34,382 nt of DNA, taken from assembly GCA_001805055.1 (NCBI GenBank), contig MHDZ01000040.1, forward strand, positions 67,492-101,873. Direction: 5' to 3'. The position numbers and the translations under genes are program-made. The notes below the pieces were generated by a model. The model was not told the origin of the DNA. It saw only the letters and a program-made list of their open reading frames with translations, and searched no databases. Positions 1 to 8,988 of this stretch are shown one piece after another. This stretch comes from Nitrospirae bacterium GWC2_57_13 (GTDB lineage Bacteria > Nitrospirota > UBA9217). Each line of letters opens with the position of its first letter. Positions within the stretch are counted from its first letter, which is position 1.

Positions 1-463
1 TGCCCGCGATGTTCTCGCCGATGACCACCACGATGCCGGAGATCGCAGCGCCCGCAGCAAGTCCTTCCCAGTTGTCTCTGGCAATGTCCGTGGAACCCAG
101 AGCCCCCGTGAAGATCGGCAGGTTGAGCTTGATCTTGTGCTTGAAGCCGATCTCGGTCTCCGTGGAAACAGCCGGAAATATGGCCTTGTCCGGATCAGGA
201 TCAACACCGACGGCGCCCACGCAGGTGCCCTGGATGTTCAAATGGGAATAATCAATGGGATACTTCTTCGTCGCGCCTGCCGTGATCTTTCCAAATGGCC
301 CGGGATAGATCACCTCCCTGCCGCGGTAGGAGGACTTCCCGACCTCGCACAATCCCGTGCAGCCATCGAGGCAGACCGAGCATATCCCTGACTGCGGCGC
401 CGCATCCTGAACCCTTGTCTTTGTTCCCGTTGCTGAACTTGCGTTTGCCTGCCCTGGTCCCAT
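1..463 (-). CDS. FMN-binding glutamate synthase-like protein, N-terminal part (cut by window edge)
   Basis: Only the first ~154 codons are in the window; the frame is open to base 1. The translation aligns closely with the start of the neighbouring gene at 598-2190: both share a CX2CX3CX3C motif near the N-terminus (here ICSVCLDGCTGLCEV), then YPGPFG, a YPIDYSHLNI block and an IFTGALGST block. It is therefore a tandem paralog of the glutamate-synthase-like (GltB FMN/alpha-subunit type) family. ATG codons lie at 472, 469 and 463. I chose 463 because a GAGGAG ribosome site at 473-478 is spaced 9 bases from it and too close to the other two. The gene follows its paralog by about 135 bases, so the two are probably co-transcribed. 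The catalytic barrel is outside the window, so activity cannot be judged. Confidence 0.88.
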   Translation of the reverse strand, partial: MGPGQANASSATGTKTRVQDAAPQSGICSVCLDGCTGLCEVGKSSYRGREVIYPGPFGKITAGATKKYPIDYSHLNIQGTCVGAVGVDPDPDKAIFPAVSTETEIGFKHKIKLNLPIFTGALGSTDIARDNWEGLAAGAAISGIVVVIGENIAG

Positions 464-527
464 GATCATCATCTCCTCGTGTTGAACGAGATTTTATCGC
501 ACGTACCTGGTGCAACGGACAGCCGGT

Positions 528-597: not shown

Positions 598-2190
598 TCA
601 GGAATTGAGTATTTTCATCGCTTCTTCGCGATAGGAATCCATAAGGTACGGTATGCCCGTGACCTTGGCGCACTCCTCGGTAAGGGACATGAGCTCGTTC
701 CTCGTGATCGAATCGATGTTGAAGCACCGGGCGCCCGCCATCATCTGCTGCAGCCCCACCTTGATCTTGTTCGAATAGCTGAAAATGCCGATCGCTCCAA
801 GCGGGACATTTTTGATCTCGTCGGCGCCGACCAGCTTTTTCACGTCCTCATAGTTGACGAAGATCTCTTCGACCGTGTTGCCAAACTCGCTCACCGTCTT
901 CGGGAGATCGTTGTCCTTGATCCAATGCTCGATATTCTTTCCGACCATGCCCGGGATCATTAATGCGCGGCCCATGCATATCGCTTTCACGAAAGGCGCA
1001 CCCATGGCCAGAGCCTTGAACACACCGTCCTCGCTGCTGAACCCGCCGGCAAAGGCAATATCCGGTACGCGCTCTCCCTTGTCGGACAGCTTCTTGGCGA
1101 ATTCATACGCAGCGGCGTGCAGATAGAGCGAGGGCATGCCCCACTCCTCCATCATGCGCCAAGGGCTCATCCCGGTGCCACCCGGAGCTCCGTCGATGGT
1201 CAACAGGTCGATCTTGGCCTTGGAGCTCCACTTGAGGGCCATGGCAAGCTCACGCAGGCCATAGGCGCCGGTCTTCAGGGTTATCCGCTTGAACCCGAGC
1301 TTCCGCAGCCGGGTAACCTCTGTGTAGAATTCCTGCTCGCCGATGAATCCCAGGCGGCTGTGGCGCTCGAACTCCTTGATTGCCGTATCGTGAAAGGCCG
1401 CCTGTACGACCGGATCAGAGGGGTCCGGCGTCACGATGTAGCCGCGCTTTTGGAGTTCCAGGGCGCGCTCCATGCTGTTCACCTTGATCTCGCCGCCGAT
1501 GCACTTGGCGCCCTGGCCCCACTTCAGCTCGATCGTGTCCAGTTTGTGCTTGTCGATGATGTATTCGGCAACGCCCAGCCGGGTGTCCTCGACGTTCATC
1601 TGCACCAGGATCTCGCCGTACCCCTGGTGGTACTTCTTATACAAGGCGATCCTGCGGTCCATATCCGGCGCCTTCTTGACCAGCTTGTTGCTGCCGAGCT
1701 CAAGTTCCGGATCAATGCCGCATACGTTCTCGCCGCAGACGATCGTCACGCCGGAGATGGCCGCCCCGACGGCGAAGTGCTCCCAGTTCTTGCGGGCGAT
1801 CTCGGTGGATCCGAGCGCGCCGGTGAAGATGGGAACGTGCATCTTGACCTTTTTGTCCCACCCATAGTTTGTCTCGGTACTGACATTCGGGAACCTGGCC
1901 GTGTCGGGGTTCCCCACCTGGCCTGCGGGAAGCCCCTTGGCCCCTAATGCATAACCATGGATATTGAGGTGTGAGTAGTCGATGGGGTAGTTCTTATCGC
2001 CGCCGGCGGTGATGCTCCCGAAAGGCCCCGGGTAGAGCAGCTCTCTTCCCCTGAAGGTCGCCTTGAACACCTCACAATTCCCTTTGCATCCGTCCACGCA
2101 GCGGGTACAGAGCCCGCTCATGGGAGAAACATTCCTCGATCGATTTGCTGTTCTTGTAGCGTCATTCGCATTTGGCTGTTGCAGATTCAT
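598..2190 (-). CDS. FMN-binding glutamate synthase family protein
   Basis: A 530-residue protein of the glutamate synthase large-subunit-like family (FMN-dependent barrel). It corresponds to the central and FMN domains of GltB without the glutaminase and GXGXG domains. The N-terminus carries a four-cysteine motif, CTRCVDGCKGNC (CX2CX3CX3C), which suggests an Fe-S cluster, although the classic GltB 3Fe-4S cysteines sit elsewhere. The C-terminal half has the FMN/phosphate-binding glycine-rich segments (IDGAPGGTGMSP, AFAGGFSSEDGV, GAPFVKAICMGRALM). An AGGAGAG ribosome site precedes the ATG. Stand-alone proteins of this type are often annotated as glutamate synthase but usually lack a proven substrate. 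The tandem paralog downstream and the upstream XRE-cupin regulator suggest a small regulated unit. The family is clear; the reaction is inferred. Confidence 0.93.
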   Translation of the reverse strand: MNLQQPNANDATRTANRSRNVSPMSGLCTRCVDGCKGNCEVFKATFRGRELLYPGPFGSITAGGDKNYPIDYSHLNIHGYALGAKGLPAGQVGNPDTARFPNVSTETNYGWDKKVKMHVPIFTGALGSTEIARKNWEHFAVGAAISGVTIVCGENVCGIDPELELGSNKLVKKAPDMDRRIALYKKYHQGYGEILVQMNVEDTRLGVAEYIIDKHKLDTIELKWGQGAKCIGGEIKVNSMERALELQKRGYIVTPDPSDPVVQAAFHDTAIKEFERHSRLGFIGEQEFYTEVTRLRKLGFKRITLKTGAYGLRELAMALKWSSKAKIDLLTIDGAPGGTGMSPWRMMEEWGMPSLYLHAAAYEFAKKLSDKGERVPDIAFAGGFSSEDGVFKALAMGAPFVKAICMGRALMIPGMVGKNIEHWIKDNDLPKTVSEFGNTVEEIFVNYEDVKKLVGADEIKNVPLGAIGIFSYSNKIKVGLQQMMAGARCFNIDSITRNELMSLTEECAKVTGIPYLMDSYREEAMKILNS

Positions 2191-2390
2191 GGTTCTCTCC
2201 TTGACTATGGATTTTTAATTTACTCTGTCCTGTTCTGATGCTGCCTTTAATGAAGACACTTCCTGGTTTTTACTCAACACTATTAGCGCTACTTAAGTTT
2301 TTCATGATCAATTAAGCATTGCTTTAGTTGGCAGGCAAAAAAAATACGCTCTCGTTCCTCTCGGTACATAGACCTCAATGAGCAACGCTG
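2191..2390 (-). promoter_or_regulatory. Leader region of the glutamate synthase-like genes
   Basis: This AT-rich 200-base gap lies between the regulator's stop codon and the glutamate-synthase-like start. It contains an 11-base palindrome, AAGCA-T-TGCTT, at 2314-2324 that could be an operator. I see no promoter close enough to consensus to call, and no copy of the CACTCGGCA motif found at the regulator's own promoter. Confidence 0.3.
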
Positions 2391-3650
2391 CTATTCCCGG
2401 ACAACGAGTACCTGCGCTTCACCACCTCCTTCGTTCTTCCATGCCGAGGGGAATGATTCCGTAAAACAGAGAGCATCACCTGCCGCGATCCGCTCCTCCC
2501 TGCCTTCCACGGTCACCACCAGAGTTCCTTCCACGACATAGATGAATTCGTCGCCCCGATGATAGGAAAAATGGCCTTTGATGTCCACGCCGGAAGGAAG
2601 CACCACGAGCTGGGCAGCCAGTTTCCGGCCCGAAGCAATGCTGTATGTCCGCGCCTTTCCCTCCATCGACGGATCGGACGAAAGAACTGATGTTTTCCGA
2701 TGGAGCCACGGAGTTGCAACAGGCGCTCCGCTCTCGACGAACAGGCCGGGCTGAATGTCCAGGGACCGGCAGATATGAAAGAACGTGCTGAGCGACGGGC
2801 TCGTAAGGTTCGCTTCGATCTGGGACAGGGAACTCGGCGTGATCCCCACCTTGTCGGCCAGATCCTTCTGGCTCATGCCGGTCCGTGTCCGCGCCTCCTT
2901 GATCTTGGCACCGATGTCCGCAACCGGCTCTTTCCTGGCAGGGATAAGGCAAACATGATCATCTCGGACCTCGTAGGCGTGGGACTTGAAGGCCTCCCGG
3001 TCCTGCCTCCCCTCCAGTTTGAGGGCCTTGAGATAGAGGCTGCTCTTTCTCCGCTGCAGGTCGAGCACGACCTGTGTAATGTGCCGCAGGTTCGCCTTGA
3101 ACTTCGGGCTGTGGGCCTCCTTTTCGAGGATCCAGTAGGCCACGGTATTGAGATCGTACAGCCGCGGACACATGTAGGTGAAGAACCGGTGGGTCTCGTT
3201 CTCATCTCCCCACAGATCCTGCATTCCCGTGAGGCTGTCGAACACGTATCGGGCGCCCGGATGCAGGCTGTCTTCGATTTCGTTCAACGTCTGCGTGAAG
3301 CGCTTGATGTTCTTCGGGTCCGTTATCCTTACGGTCTTGACGTCAGACTGTTTATCATAGAATCGCAGAAAGGTGTTGTCGTTCTTGCCCTTGCCTGAAG
3401 TGAAGCAGTCGATGAAAATAAAATGGACGGGAGAGATAATACCGGTCAACGCCGCCAAAACGCTCTGCGGCGACCTGTTGAAGCTCACATAGATCACCTT
3501 TTGCTCGTCTTTGAAGGACCGGCTGATGAAATCCCGTATGAACGCTTCATAGGAAGCGCCAGCGTCCACCTCCCAGACGACATTGTCGCCGATATGGAGA
3601 GACCCGATCAGGGAATCAAGACCCTGTACGCCCGATGATATCTTTGTCAT
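2391..3650 (-). CDS. RecA/KaiC-like ATPase domain fused to XRE helix-turn-helix and cupin
   Basis: A three-part protein of about 419 residues. Residues ~1-225 resemble a KaiC/RadA-type RecA fold: it opens KISSGVQGLDSLIG, and a Walker B-like YVFDSLTG is present. The P-loop position reads VDAGASYEAF, with no GKT/S, so nucleotide hydrolysis is doubtful. Residues ~245-300 are an XRE helix-turn-helix (IKEARTRTGMSQKDLADKVG, then a SLSQIEAN recognition helix). Residues ~330-419 are a cupin barrel (YHRGDEFIYVVEGTL). XRE-cupin proteins are usually ligand-sensing repressors. ATG codons also occur at 3671 and 3701, but the fold begins at 3650 and the upstream ATGs lie within or beside a palindrome cluster. 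No strong ribosome site precedes any of them, so the start is uncertain. The likely target is its own promoter; the glutamate-synthase-like genes are a second guess. Confidence 0.88.
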   Translation of the reverse strand: MTKISSGVQGLDSLIGSLHIGDNVVWEVDAGASYEAFIRDFISRSFKDEQKVIYVSFNRSPQSVLAALTGIISPVHFIFIDCFTSGKGKNDNTFLRFYDKQSDVKTVRITDPKNIKRFTQTLNEIEDSLHPGARYVFDSLTGMQDLWGDENETHRFFTYMCPRLYDLNTVAYWILEKEAHSPKFKANLRHITQVVLDLQRRKSSLYLKALKLEGRQDREAFKSHAYEVRDDHVCLIPARKEPVADIGAKIKEARTRTGMSQKDLADKVGITPSSLSQIEANLTSPSLSTFFHICRSLDIQPGLFVESGAPVATPWLHRKTSVLSSDPSMEGKARTYSIASGRKLAAQLVVLPSGVDIKGHFSYHRGDEFIYVVEGTLVVTVEGREERIAAGDALCFTESFPSAWKNEGGGEAQVLVVRE

Positions 3651-3673
3651 AGTGGTGATGTCGGCCGGCATTG

Positions 3674-3715
3674 GCCGAGTGGCCCGGGAGCCACTCGGCA
3701 TACCATTGCCGAGTG
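3674..3715. promoter_or_regulatory. Paired 24-base palindromes, candidate operator
   Basis: Three alternating copies of one 9-base core form two overlapping palindromes. GCCGAGTGG starts at 3674, its complement CACTCGGCA lies at 3692-3700, and TGCCGAGTG lies at 3707-3715. Repeats 2 and 3 form a perfect palindrome with a 6-base spacer. Repeats 1 and 2 form another with a short spacer. The cluster overlaps the predicted transcription start of the regulator gene, the usual position for autorepression by a dimeric XRE protein. At the RNA level the same arms could form mutually exclusive hairpins. Confidence 0.65.
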
Positions 3716-3720
3716 CGGTA

Positions 3721-3750
3721 AGAATACAACGAGGGGGTTGCCGTCGTCAA
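3721..3750 (-). promoter_or_regulatory. Predicted sigma70 promoter of the KaiC-XRE-cupin gene
   Basis: On the minus strand the -35 hexamer TTGACG (3745-3750) is separated by 18 bases from a -10 hexamer TATTCT (3721-3726). Transcription would begin near 3713-3715, at the edge of the palindrome cluster. This supports a translation start well inside the longest reading frame. Confidence 0.55.
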
Positions 3751-3824
3751 GCTGAAAGTGCGCTTTTTTGGCTCTTGCCGGGAATGCCGCATGTGTCCTC
3801 GGCGGACGCTTTGGCGACGGATCA

Positions 3825-3852
3825 ATTCGGAGTGCGGGGTGCAGAATTATGG
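3825..3852. repeat. Degenerate 7-base tandem repeat (4 units)
   Basis: The units ATTCGGA, GTGCGGG, GTGCAGA and ATTATGG follow each other in exact 7-base phase. The array sits about 80 bases beyond the stop codon of the reductase gene. It is followed (about 3868-3915) by a GTTAACTCGGTGGGCTCTGTGG-type segment resembling other intergenic repeats in this window. Confidence 0.6.
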
Positions 3853-3932
3853 AACACTCCAAAGCCACGTATTTCGCGGTTAACTCGGTGGGCTCTGTGG
3901 CAAACGAGATCTTCTCTTCGATAATACCGTTC

Positions 3933-5018
3933 TTACCGAACTTTCACCCTCTTGCCCGGATCATTCCGGTGCTTCTGGTAATATTCCACGCAGTTCCCGA
4001 TATAATCCTTCAGATCCGGACACCGGATGCCTGTGCCACGGAGATCCTTCTGGGCATGGGCCGTGTCGTAATAGGCAGGGGAGTGAAAATACTCCAGTGT
4101 CTCCTTCTCCACCCCTATCCACCGGCGGAACCACGCCAGAGACAGCGCAGCAGAGACGAAATAGGACGGAATGGTGAAGAAGGGCCGCTTGCTGAGGAGC
4201 CGCTCGCAGATCATCGTATAGACCTCGCGGGCAGTATGCGGAGACGGGTCGGTGAGGTGATATACCCTGTTCACTGCAGAATGAATAAATGCGAAATGGG
4301 CGGCTGCTTTGACCACATAATCTACCGGCACTATATTGAAGGGGCTCTGTCCCTTGCCGATGTTCGGGATCGGAAGCCTCCGGAACCGGTCCAGGAACCG
4401 CATGATGAAGTACATGCCGTCGAACTTGGCCGTCTCGCCGGTCGTGGAATGTCCCACCGTGACCGCCGGTCTTATGATCGTGGTCGGCACCGATGACATG
4501 AGGGCCTGTACCAGACGCTCTGCTTCGAATTTGGTTGATTCGTAATGGTTCTTGAAGTTCTGGCCCTGGTCCAGCTCTGACTCGAGGATCCTGCCCATTC
4601 TCCGTCCCGACACGTAGGCAGTGCTGAAATACACGTACCGTTTCAGGTTCCGCAAATCCCGCACAAAACGGTTCACCTTGCGCGTTCCTGTAATGTTCAC
4701 CTGGTAGGCCGTCTCTGCAGGCACCGCGAGATCATAGACCGCTGCAAGGTGGAACAGATGCGTAACTTCAAGCTGCATCCGGTAATAGGTCACGCTGTCA
4801 AGGCCCAGAAGCTCCTGTGTGATGTCCCCCGGAATGAGCTCGAAGCGTTCCTGGGGGCCCATACCTTCATGAACAAGCCGCTTGACCGTCTGTTGCGCCG
4901 CTTCTGCCTGGGATGAGTGAACGAGCAGACGGAACCGCGACCCTCTGTCGCGCTGGTTGAGGGCGCGAACGAGATAGGTTGCAAGAAATCCGGGGAAACC
5001 GGTGAGGAAGAAGGCCAT
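3933..5018 (-). CDS. NAD(P)-binding SDR-family protein (thioester reductase / epimerase type)
   Basis: A 361-residue extended short-chain dehydrogenase with a Rossmann fold. The N-terminal nucleotide-binding motif is LTGFPGFLATYL (residues 5-16), where the usual third glycine is alanine. The active-site pair is Tyr159 and Lys163 (YESTK), with Ser132/Thr133 in FSTAYVSG. The overall pattern resembles the thioester reductase / fatty acyl reductase-like branch (NAD-binding 4) more than sugar epimerases. Such proteins reduce acyl thioesters or act on sterol-like or polyketide substrates; the substrate here is unknown. A short hydrophobic stretch near residue 290 (SYFVSAALSLAWF) hints at membrane association. 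It stands alone, with a repeat-filled gap before the XRE regulator and a toxin-antitoxin pair upstream. Confidence 0.85.
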   Translation of the reverse strand: MAFFLTGFPGFLATYLVRALNQRDRGSRFRLLVHSSQAEAAQQTVKRLVHEGMGPQERFELIPGDITQELLGLDSVTYYRMQLEVTHLFHLAAVYDLAVPAETAYQVNITGTRKVNRFVRDLRNLKRYVYFSTAYVSGRRMGRILESELDQGQNFKNHYESTKFEAERLVQALMSSVPTTIIRPAVTVGHSTTGETAKFDGMYFIMRFLDRFRRLPIPNIGKGQSPFNIVPVDYVVKAAAHFAFIHSAVNRVYHLTDPSPHTAREVYTMICERLLSKRPFFTIPSYFVSAALSLAWFRRWIGVEKETLEYFHSPAYYDTAHAQKDLRGTGIRCPDLKDYIGNCVEYYQKHRNDPGKRVKVR

Positions 5019-5077: not shown

Positions 5078-5512
5078 CTACGGCTCCTTTATCGGAATGT
5101 TACTGTCGGGCCATACTCGCTTAAAATCCGCAGAATTGAACGTAAGGATCTGATCCACGCCGGCCTTAAGGGCCGCTTTGATGATCAGCGCGTCATAGGT
5201 AGATCCGCCAATAATCCCAAGATCAGCCAGATGTTTTATCGTTGCGAGATAGTCGGAAACGGAAAGCGGGATAATAGACGCCATGCTTTCGATGTTCTCA
5301 TGGATAAGACGGTGCGCCATTCCGGCTGTGATACGGGGACTCACCGGAAGTGTCGTAAGGACCGCGTATAATTCTGCAATGGAATAGGCCGAGACCACGC
5401 ACTCGAGTTTGCCCGATGATGCACGGCCAAACCAGGGAAGGGCCCGCTGATGGGCCGGATGCGGCTGAACAAGGGCCGCCACAAGCACGGAAGTGTCGAA
5501 CAGGACCTTCAC
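5078..5512 (-). CDS. vapC: PIN-domain ribonuclease toxin (VapC type)
   Basis: A 144-residue single-domain PIN protein. The acidic metal-binding residues are visible: Asp6 (LFDTSVL), Glu47 (SIAELYA), Asp107 (TYDALI) and Asp129 (NSADF). PIN toxins cleave RNA, often tRNA or rRNA, and are held inactive by the partner antitoxin. The start is a GTG codon overlapping the antitoxin stop (GTGA), which implies translational coupling. All four acidic residues are kept and there is no frameshift, so the toxin looks intact. The family is clear; the target RNA cannot be read from sequence. Confidence 0.92.
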   Translation of the reverse strand: MKVLFDTSVLVAALVQPHPAHQRALPWFGRASSGKLECVVSAYSIAELYAVLTTLPVSPRITAGMAHRLIHENIESMASIIPLSVSDYLATIKHLADLGIIGGSTYDALIIKAALKAGVDQILTFNSADFKRVWPDSNIPIKEP

Positions 5513-5772
5513 GCCTTTTTTACCGAAGAAAGCCTTCTGATGTGTTCATCTCTACCGGCGCTGACACTCCCCTCGATGTCTCCTGTCGACGCACCGGTGA
5601 ATACGAGCACCCCGTCCTTCATCTGGAGCGGGACGATGTCATCTGCCGGCTTCAGGACTACCTCGCGCCCGTGCTCCTCTATCTCGATCTCATCGCCTGG
5701 CCGCAATCCGAGCCTGTCCCGGATATCCTTCGGGACCACCAGCCTGCCGAACTTATCTAGGGTAGTTTTCAT
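5509..5772 (-). CDS. AbrB/MazE-type (SpoVT-AbrB fold) antitoxin
   Basis: An 87-residue protein. The N-terminal half is a swapped-hairpin AbrB DNA-binding domain (KFGRLVVPKDIRDRLGLRPG, then EIEIEEHG). The C-terminal half is variable and presumably wraps the PIN toxin. I chose the ATG at 5772 over the longer frame (5814) because GAGGTG sits 5-6 bases upstream and the domain begins there. The gene lies directly ahead of the PIN gene with a 4-base overlap, the normal antitoxin-then-toxin order. Antitoxins of this fold repress their own operon through a palindrome, and one lies within the predicted promoter just upstream. Confidence 0.92.
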   Translation of the reverse strand: MKTTLDKFGRLVVPKDIRDRLGLRPGDEIEIEEHGREVVLKPADDIVPLQMKDGVLVFTGASTGDIEGSVSAGRDEHIRRLSSVKKA

Positions 5773-5809
5773 TACAGCACCTCGTTGCCGTTCCTCAAGC
5801 CATCTAATT

Positions 5810-5845
5810 GCCATTATAGCATGTCAATTGGCAATTATCAATGGC
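5810..5845 (-). promoter_or_regulatory. Promoter and nested palindromic operator of the toxin-antitoxin pair
   Basis: On the minus strand TTGATA (5836-5841) and TATAAT (5813-5818) are separated by exactly 17 bases. An 11-base palindrome (AATTG-C-CAATT, 5826-5836) occupies the spacer. A wider inverted repeat, GCCATT/AATGGC (5810-5815 and 5840-5845), brackets the whole promoter. This is a good geometry for autorepression by an AbrB-fold antitoxin. Confidence 0.7.
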
Positions 5846-7329: not shown

Positions 7330-8784
7330 CTACAATATCGCCGCAATGGACGCCCGGGCGAAGTTCAACACGTTGTCAGGATACACGCCGATGTAGATGA
7401 CCGTGACCAGGGAAAAAACCAGGGCGATTGCCAGCGACGGGGCCGTGGCGAGCTTGAACTCGGCCTGGGGCTCGCTCATATACATGACCATGATGACCCG
7501 GAGATAGAAATAGGCGCTGATGGCCGAGAAAATGACGCCCACAACGGCGAGCCAGACCATGTCGGCCTGGATAGCGGCCTTGAAGATGTAAAACTTGCCC
7601 ATGAACCCTGCCGTGGGCGGGATACCGGTGAGCGAAAACATGAAGATCAGCATGAAGAATGCGGCCATCTTGTTCGTCTTGCCCAGGCCCGCGAAATCCT
7701 TTATCTCCTCGCCGCGCTCACCCGACCTGCGGAGCATGATGACGATGCCGAAGGCGCCCATGTTCATGACGGCATAAATGAAGACGTACATCATCACGCT
7801 GGCGACCCCTTCGGGACCGCCGGCGGCAATGCCAACAAGGGCGTAGCCTGCGTGGGCGATGGAGCTGTAGGCCAGCATGCGCTTGATGTTCGTCTGGGAC
7901 AGGGCGATGATGTTGCCCACGGCCATGGTGAGCACCGCGATGCCCGCGATGATGGTCGTCACATCATGCTGCAGGGGCTGGAGGGCATAGGAAAAAACGC
8001 GCAGCAGCACGGCAAACCCCGCGATCTTCGGGCCTGCAGACATGAAGGCCGTGACCGATGTGGGAGCGCCTTCGTACACGTCCGGCACCCACATATGGAA
8101 AGGCGCAGCAGCGATCTTGAAGCCAAAGCTCACGATCAGCATGATCATGGCAAGAAAGACCATGGGATTCGCCAGGTCAGCGCCGCGCAGGAACGCGTGA
8201 ATGCCCGCCAGGTTCGTGGTGCCTGACATGCCGTAGAGCAGCGACATGCCGTAGAGCATGATGCCTGACGAGAAGGAGCCGAGCAGCAGATACTTGATTG
8301 CAGCTTCGTTGGAACGGCTGTCGCGGCGCATGAAGCCGGCAAGCACGTAAATGGACATGGCCATGAGCTCAAGACCGAGATAGATGGTGATGAGGTCCCC
8401 TGCTGACGCCATGAGCATCATGCCTGCCGTGGCGAAAAGCATCAGGGCGTAATATTCGCCGCGGTGAATGTCCTCTATCTTGAGATAGTTGATGGAAACG
8501 AGGATGCCGAGGCTGCAGGCCACGTAGAAGGAGAACTTGAAGTAAACCGAAAAACGGTCGAGCAGAAAGGTCCCGGCAAAGAACGACCCGGTCACACCCA
8601 TGAGCTTGAAGGTGGCTAGGGCGGCGATGATGACGCCTGCGAGGCTGTACCAGCCCAGGGACGACTTCTGCTCCTTCCTGACGAAGAGATCGAGCAGCAG
8701 CACCGTGAGCGCCACGGTGATCACCACGACCTCGGGATAGATCGGCGTCATGAGCGTAAAAAATTCCTGCAGCGTACTTGGCAT
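7330..8784 (-). CDS. nuoN: NADH-quinone oxidoreductase subunit N
   Basis: A 484-residue antiporter-like membrane subunit of complex I and the last gene of the locus. Conserved family segments include the glutamate in LGLELMAMSIYVLAGF and the lysine/histidine-bearing block KIAAAPFHMWVPDVYEGAP. A second lysine lies in SAGPKIAGFA, and a third in QTNIKRMLAYSSIAHAGY. These buried charges form part of the proton path. I placed the start at the ATG at 8784: GAGGTG lies 6 bases upstream, and the in-frame GTG at 8793 would be inside that site. A repeat-filled 204-base gap separates it from nuoM. Confidence 0.97.
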   Translation of the reverse strand: MPSTLQEFFTLMTPIYPEVVVITVALTVLLLDLFVRKEQKSSLGWYSLAGVIIAALATFKLMGVTGSFFAGTFLLDRFSVYFKFSFYVACSLGILVSINYLKIEDIHRGEYYALMLFATAGMMLMASAGDLITIYLGLELMAMSIYVLAGFMRRDSRSNEAAIKYLLLGSFSSGIMLYGMSLLYGMSGTTNLAGIHAFLRGADLANPMVFLAMIMLIVSFGFKIAAAPFHMWVPDVYEGAPTSVTAFMSAGPKIAGFAVLLRVFSYALQPLQHDVTTIIAGIAVLTMAVGNIIALSQTNIKRMLAYSSIAHAGYALVGIAAGGPEGVASVMMYVFIYAVMNMGAFGIVIMLRRSGERGEEIKDFAGLGKTNKMAAFFMLIFMFSLTGIPPTAGFMGKFYIFKAAIQADMVWLAVVGVIFSAISAYFYLRVIMVMYMSEPQAEFKLATAPSLAIALVFSLVTVIYIGVYPDNVLNFARASIAAIL

Positions 8785-8988
8785 GCGTTTCACCTCGAAG
8801 AACCCTAATAAAATCGTTTAGGACGCAGATAACATCTGATAAACGCGGATAAAAAATCCGAAACTGAAAAAAGCGAAGCTCTCTCTAGAACTGAATGTCA
8901 GGTCCTATCCGCGAAAATCCGCGTTCATCCGCGTCCAACAACTGCTCTCAGGATCATCAATTCCCGTAGTATAAAGACTCCGAACCGC
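8785..8988. repeat. nuoM-nuoN spacer with phased 10-base repeats and inverted counterpart
   Basis: Three 10-base units, TATCCGCGAA, AATCCGCGTT and CATCCGCGTC, run in exact phase at 8906-8935. About 60 bases away (8820-8855) lies an inverted, more diverged copy (GGACGCAGAT ... ACGCGGATAA), so the spacer RNA could fold into a long imperfect hairpin. No gene is seen. Confidence 0.65.

Follow-up and report, generated by a model that had tools for sequence, protein, structure and literature searches.

A KaiC-type pseudo-ATPase fused to XRE and cupin modules: a candidate regulator of glutamate synthesis in Nitrospirota

A gene of Nitrospirae bacterium GWC2_57_13, hereafter REG, encodes a KaiC-type domain that has lost its ATPase motifs, joined to an XRE-type helix-turn-helix (HTH) and a cupin, and it lies in a cluster of glutamate-synthase genes. 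We propose, with a probability of about 0.62, that REG is a one-component transcription factor for glutamate synthesis and ammonium assimilation, sensing via its KaiC pseudo-ATPase and standing under NrpR. Positions refer to the window, i.e., the whole stretch of 34,382 nucleotides that was analysed (contig MHDZ01000040.1, positions 67,492 to 101,873). An initial annotation of this DNA, made from the letters alone, described the protein correctly and interpreted it in part correctly; the link to glutamate synthesis had escaped it.

A KaiC-type domain without ATPase motifs

REG and its parts occupy the following positions:
2391..3650, minus strand: REG, 419 aa, composed of a KaiC-fold pseudo-ATPase (residues 1-238), an XRE HTH (246-305) and a cupin (341-418)
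2937..3650, minus strand: inactivated KaiC domain, residues 1-238, without the Walker A Lys and without the catalytic EE
2736..2915, minus strand: XRE-type HTH, residues 246-305, with the HTH_3 match at 250-302
2397..2630, minus strand: cupin, residues 341-418, of low conservation and with no conserved set of metal-binding His residues

The chain is intact and starts with the ATG at 3650; initiation at another in-frame ATG, at 3701, would lengthen it to 436 aa, but the relatives align to the 3650 start. In Pfam, HTH_3 (residues 250-302, E 3e-13) and Cupin_2 (residues 350-417, E 3.5e-12) both score above their curated cut-offs, which places REG among the XRE-cupin regulators. The best NCBIfam match, PuuR (NF007408), reaches 47 bits against a cut-off of 211, so that REG does not belong to the PuuR equivalog; it has the HTH_3 and Cupin_2 layout of regulators such as PuuR and carries the KaiC domain in addition. 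The three modules announced by the initial annotation are thus all found in one intact open reading frame. Of the 52 loci that we obtained by scanning genomes, 38 (L001-L038) encode the same KaiC-XRE-cupin architecture or a part of it cut by the contig end; the remaining 14 (L039-L052) have only the XRE-cupin part and were excluded from the counts. In the open-licence literature, we found no paper on a KaiC, XRE and cupin combination or on a nitrogen role of such a protein, at least among the matches listed, in agreement with the earlier remark that no characterized protein is known to have this domain order.

As a single sequence, the N-terminal part matches no family above cut-off, with weak hits to PAXNEB (Pfam) and KaiC_arch_4 (NCBIfam). 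With 28 family members joined in a profile, matches to solved KaiC chains and to PH0284 appear, and 20 of these members match Pfam KaiC (PF06745) at E<=1; profile comparison between the family domain and KaiC gives E 4.3e-6 over 212 columns. The AlphaFold2 model of REG, built with 31 sequences, has a mean pLDDT of 87.3. Its residues 2-238 superpose on PH0284 (2dr3_F; Z 24.7, rmsd 2.1 over 217 residues) and about residues 1-238 superpose on KaiC (7s65_B; Z 24.3). According to this model, REG residues 1-238 have a KaiC-type RecA fold, and the structure prediction proposed earlier as a check on the fold came out RecA-like.

The nucleotide-binding motifs are lost throughout the family. In REG, GDNVVWEVDAGAS occupies the place of the KaiC GxxGxGKT loop, and GDN[VIA][VI]W...G aligns at the Walker A position in a 31-member alignment; the near copies L102 and L023 were omitted from alignment A3. 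The signature G[DPE]x..W is present in 121 of the 128 sequences collected from two phyla; the other seven comprise fragments, a GHNVVW variant from a single genome that was read twice, an ORF in the wrong frame and the divergent G459/G484 type. GK[ST] never follows this signature (0/128), nor does G-x(2-5)-GK[ST] occur at that place in any of the 128, which bears out the absence of GKT/S stated in the initial annotation. As a positive control, the KaiC copies of the home genome (L207) keep the P-loop (GGAGCGKT and GTAGTGKT), unlike the REG family. The position of the KaiC EE is occupied by DR, NR, NK and the like, never by EE (110 readable sequences of 128). The Walker B-like DSLTG, also seen earlier, is at residues 138-142; the DS is kept in most members and the Walker B Asp is replaced by Glu in many. 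Other conserved motifs of the domain are GDNVVW, DCFTxGKG, FDSLTGMQDLWGDE and AYW..EK.AHS. A pattern for the HTH motif left 67 of the 128 sequences unmatched, a figure that reflects a pattern that is too narrow and several fragments and is not a tally of architectures.

Judged from these sequences, the broken P-loop is a fixed family trait, and the N-terminal domain of REG is an inactivated-KaiC (iKaiC) domain, i.e., a KaiC-like domain with lost ATPase motifs in a signalling fusion. The conserved fold and the Walker B-like DS of most members could point to a site that still binds and hydrolyses ATP in a non-canonical way, yet a protein family with neither Walker A nor EE, and with Glu for the Walker B Asp in many members, is extremely unlikely to do so.

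Linkage of REG to glutamate-synthase genes

Two homologues of FMN-type glutamate synthase (gltB-FMN; proteins with a Glu_synthase domain) are present at the left end of the window:
598..2190, minus strand: gltB-FMN (A), Glu_synthase domain, 530 aa, next gene downstream of REG and its probable target
1..472, minus strand: second gltB-FMN homologue (B), running off the left window edge

On the home contig, REG and the two gltB-FMN copies (A, then B) are followed on the same strand by NrpR, a GATase-like gene, a GltB2 that includes ferredoxin domains, and a fusion of GXGXG with a pyridine-nucleotide oxidoreductase. This is a glutamate-synthase cluster; its GATase-like gene has no Pfam match and its name is our reading. 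The nitrogen repressor NrpR (NRD1_2), best known from methanogens, is a separate protein that shares with REG the gene cluster, the nitrogen theme and the O1 boxes described below. The copy B is broken by a run of N in the assembly at the left window edge (L084:8425-9964). Elsewhere in the window, a PIN-domain gene (5078-5512, minus strand) adjoins a MazE/AbrB-type gene (5509-5814, minus strand), forming a VapBC-like toxin-antitoxin candidate, and a NuoN-like gene for a complex-I subunit is located at 7330-8793 (minus strand).

The next same-strand gene after REG is gltB-FMN in 29 of the 29 Nitrospirota loci with downstream sequence, a count outside which L005 and L029 fall, both ending at REG. 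The gap between the two genes measures 100-247 bp in 28 of the 29; in L037, a spurious antisense gene call masks the start of gltB-FMN, placed at 1109 by tblastn. Among 295 Nitrospirota genomes, REG is present in 45 (46 with the domain, which G269 has only in a 920-aa ORF), gltB-FMN in 50 and NrpR in 63, alongside REG in 40. Both REG and gltB-FMN occur in 44 genomes, REG only in one, gltB-FMN only in six and neither in 244 (Fisher p 1e-44, which, for related genomes, is not a probability of independent events). In G218, REG is present and we found neither gltB-FMN nor any O2 element (see below) above score 15 within the 17.9 kb read.

The domain is also encoded in 70 of 198 genomes of a second phylum, the Thermodesulfobacteriota, that of Desulfoluna limicola: shorter ORFs (209-612 aa) carry it in 44 genomes and longer ones (823-1194 aa) in 29, including four genomes with both; one further genome has it in short pieces only. 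The link to gltB-FMN recurs there. Ten of 19 REG loci read contain gltB-FMN, one contains PII-AmtB (L197) and eight contain neither; in further loci, gltB-FMN is present in four of eight. No nitrogen gene was found near REG in L030-L036 (Desulfoluna and others).

Two palindromic elements around REG

The intergenic regions on both sides of REG contain palindromes:
3694..3713, no strand assigned: O1 palindrome CTCGGCATACCATTGCCGAG before the REG gene, probably an NrpR operator in a weak variant (score 14.6)
2337..2344, minus strand: T8 run (A8 on the plus strand), 8 bp ahead of O2 copy 1 and belonging to the conserved element
2308..2328, minus strand: O2 palindrome copy 1, ACTAAAGCAATGCTTAATTGA on the minus strand, in the REG-gltB gap, candidate REG operator
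2278..2298, minus strand: O2 palindrome copy 2, ACTTAAGTAGCGCTAATAGTG, 30 bp from copy 1

The palindromes at 3674-3715 had earlier been proposed as the operator of the protein itself. They do exist, and their consensus, GGTAACCGNTTACC (GGTA-N6-TACC), overlaps the REG promoter/start region in most Nitrospirota loci, as autoregulation would have it. Against this, O1 before REG (score >=14) occurs in 27 of 27 NrpR-positive genomes read and in only one of five NrpR-negative ones (p 1.4e-4, for 27 of the 40 genomes with both REG and NrpR and with the cut-off of 14 chosen after seeing the scores; a weak O1-like site in G290, score 12.6, thereby counts as absent). O1 also precedes gltB-FMN in G204 and G210, both without REG, and G218 has O1 with no NrpR found. 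The O1 matrix was made from REG upstream regions, so that matches there are by construction; over 383 kb it scores above 16 at 47 places, against zero in three mononucleotide shuffles. The independent matches are located before GATase/GOGAT genes (9), second gltB-FMN copies (3) and gdhA (1), and a tighter O1 pattern matches the home genome exactly at one place only, some 83 bp upstream of the GATase gene. GGTA-N6-TACC has been described as the NrpRI operator of Methanosarcina mazei (PMC3177094).

O1 has the sequence of an NrpR operator, and its presence or absence before REG largely goes with that of NrpR. Since its consensus matches the NrpRI operator and it is mostly missing where NrpR is missing, O1 is most likely bound by NrpR and not by REG, with REG belonging to the NrpR regulon. 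We rejected O1 as the operator of REG itself, a reading that we regard as very unlikely; the palindromes are best explained as NrpR boxes. In the open-licence literature, no relevant paper was found on NrpR in Thermodesulfovibrio, Nitrospirae or Deltaproteobacteria.

O2, between REG and gltB-FMN, consists of a T-run, 8 bp, a palindrome of the TTAAG-N5-CTTAA type, 30-32 bp and a second copy; the spacings observed, 30-32 or 21-22 bp, are compatible with helical phasing. A model of this element, R1, finds matches in 43 of the 295 genomes at E<1e-4, and 41 of the 43 are among the 45 genomes with REG. The four REG genomes without such a match have weak elements (G095, G143), a short spacing (G159) or none (G218). 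O2 is kept where NrpR is missing. It also precedes second gltB-FMN copies in G220, G284, G282, G141 and G179, and gdhA in L009 and L149. A genome that has REG also carries a strong single O2 site some 35 bp ahead of carB (L147:1201). Above score 14, there are 70 O2 sites in the loci and 8 and 15 in two mononucleotide shuffles; we do not trust weak single sites, because the shuffles also give matches above 14.

In the second phylum, R1 detects the full element in L178 (E 3.6e-5) and L157 (E 2.4e-8), with the same layout of T-run, 8 bp, site, 30 bp and site. In L236 (2477-2576, minus strand; L157/L236), the full element is located between REG and a NuoEF-like gene instead of gltB. The core TNAG-N5-CTNA is present upstream of gltB-FMN in six of nine second-phylum loci (expected 0.30), with a pattern shaped with those loci in view, and in two of six held-out loci (expected 0.28, p 0.03). 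Recognition helices with SQM go with CTGA variants of O2, a correlation confounded by relationship.

From this distribution, REG probably binds O2, which is a better candidate than O1 for its own operator. Another protein or an RNA role could nevertheless own the element, because O2 is complete in G272, where no REG was found, and persists in G086 and G187 beside a broken REG. In G086 (L111), REG has decayed to a 113-aa cupin stub (1730-2071, minus strand), and in G187 (L112) only its C-terminal end remains, around 2407-2800. O2 could also act as a leader RNA, since it ends at the ribosome-binding site in many loci, where a promoter would hardly fit behind it. If O2 were the site of another regulator or a leader or attenuator of gltB-FMN, with REG controlling something else or only itself, the T-run within the element and the O2 copies before second gltB-FMN genes away from REG would also find an explanation. 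This alternative is unlikely, though it retains some weight: of the two genomes with the element that lack REG, G187 has the REG remnant; gltB-FMN is without O2 in the REG-less G204 and G210 (in G072, the sixth genome with gltB-FMN only, the contig starts there); and the element stands before gdhA, carB and, next to REG, the NuoEF-like gene. RNAalifold predicts no pair in the consensus of the element and Rfam yields no match of note for window positions 1900-4000, the two results obtained when a riboswitch or other RNA leader was considered. We also considered, by eye, that the T-run might belong to a sigma-54 promoter and dropped this idea, as the spacing is not constant. Separately, a leader that combines a hairpin of the AGACAAAGGYGTC type with a GACRCCTTTTTT terminator matching it is present upstream of gltB-FMN in L183, L188, L193, L199, L156 and L158, and we take it to resemble an ANTAR antitermination leader.

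The sensor domain, its relatives and a possible circuit

Conservation differs strongly between the three modules. Of the 238 positions of the KaiC part, 41 are invariant, as are 10 of the 60 HTH positions; the cupin, with 2 of 78, is the least conserved domain of the family. The ends of strands 1-5 form the nucleotide-binding face in RecA proteins, and 21 of the 41 invariant residues are within the corresponding 55 of 234 positions (odds ratio 4.9, p 2e-5), which we chose from the strand list of the AlphaFold2 model. This distribution suggests that the KaiC part probably still binds something on the old nucleotide face, and, of the nucleotide-binding and the purely structural sensor offered by the initial annotation, we lean towards a domain with a binding site rather than one that only serves as scaffold, because the invariant residues concentrate there. 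In the cupin, the metal-binding His/Glu set is only partially conserved and no second-motif His is conserved among 31 aligned members. Four second-phylum relatives (L183, L184, L190 and L191) consist of the KaiC part and the HTH only. With the cupin so poorly conserved and missing from these four, and the KaiC part strongly conserved, the latter looks like the main sensor. The two-signal regulator of the initial annotation is therefore retained as a fusion, and the cupin as its second signal is weakened.

KaiC relatives assemble via the KaiC fold, and in XRE-cupin regulators sensing is usually done by the cupin; moreover, a model cannot show a ligand. The dead KaiC part could accordingly be a structural oligomerization module only (a ring or dimer scaffold), with the cupin as the real sensor. 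We consider this improbable in view of the state of the cupin in the family, the concentration of conserved residues on the old nucleotide face and the reuse of the same dead-KaiC domain on an enzyme. This reuse is seen in proteins of about 860-990 aa from Nitrospirota and Desulfobacterota, termed here KaiC*-PPDK_N, whose N-terminal domain is the closest relative of that of REG (hhalign probability 99.9, E 9e-32) and is also without P-loop. Their output is a PPDK_N (ATP-binding phosphotransferase) domain, whereas that of REG is DNA binding. Such genes were noted in L016 (1978-4584), L018 (3188-5794, by similarity only), L184 (381-2987) and L192 (69-2705), all on the minus strand. In L016 and L018 the gene has REG nearby; in L192 and L184 it is near PII-AmtB, NrpR or gltB-FMN, with PII-AmtB beside it in L192 and NrpR in L184. 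The patterns used found no PPDK-type relative in viral contigs, and the open-licence literature held nothing relevant on KaiC, PPDK and glutamate synthase among the matches listed.

DcmR and other MEDS-HTH regulators likewise join an inactivated-KaiC-type sensor to a DNA-binding part. Their sensor domain has no detectable sequence relation to that of REG: membership in MEDS (PF14417) was rejected, with no match among 28 members at E<=1 and an hhalign probability under 1 percent. The archaeal KaiC-like ATPases PH0284 and SSO2452, as well as KaiC, have the fold of REG residues 1-238, and PH0284 also shares a 'D.FT.G.GK' stretch. Inactivated KaiC domains in archaeal signal transduction, including iKaiC-REC, DUF835 and MEDS, which is labelled iKaiC, are described in PMC5847659; they resemble REG in a KaiC fold with lost ATPase motifs fused to signalling modules. 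REG differs in being bacterial, in its own motifs (GDNVVW and FDSLTGMQDLWGDE), in its fusion to XRE(-cupin) and in being sister to the PPDK_N proteins. Inactivated KaiC in signalling (PMC5847659) and XRE-cupin regulators were known already; their combination and its nitrogen context appear to be new, judged from the open-licence papers listed.

In the mechanism that we propose, the KaiC pseudo-ATPase domain of REG would bind, at the former nucleotide site, a small ligand that signals the nitrogen, carbon or energy state. The ligand would alter the seating of the XRE HTH on the paired O2 palindromes (TNAG-N5-CTNA, two copies in helical phase), through which REG would control gltB-FMN together with certain further glutamate or redox genes. 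An optional second input, or dimerization, may be the role of the cupin. The REG gene is probably controlled by NrpR. In NrpR-bearing relatives, NrpR would repress REG and the glutamate-synthase operon via O1, giving a two-step circuit in which it sets the level of both from above. For this circuit, we infer the sign of regulation and an action of NrpR as in methanogens, with 2-oxoglutarate as inducer.

The sister proteins suggest one receptor with two outputs. Tentatively, and with odds somewhat below even, a single dead-KaiC receptor of nitrogen or carbon status may serve both the REG transcription factor and a PPDK-type phosphotransferase of PEP/pyruvate metabolism, with NrpR as the upper switch. 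If so, a former clock/RecA ATPase face would have become a metabolite receptor coupling nitrogen assimilation to carbon flow. NrpR is indicated as a nitrogen switch in Nitrospirota, and a conserved bacterial dead-KaiC family has a strong metabolic address, namely glutamate synthase, PII-AmtB and NrpR. Since the family offers a candidate DNA site, a minimal form that lacks the cupin and a sister fused to an enzyme, its ligand and its DNA binding become directly testable.
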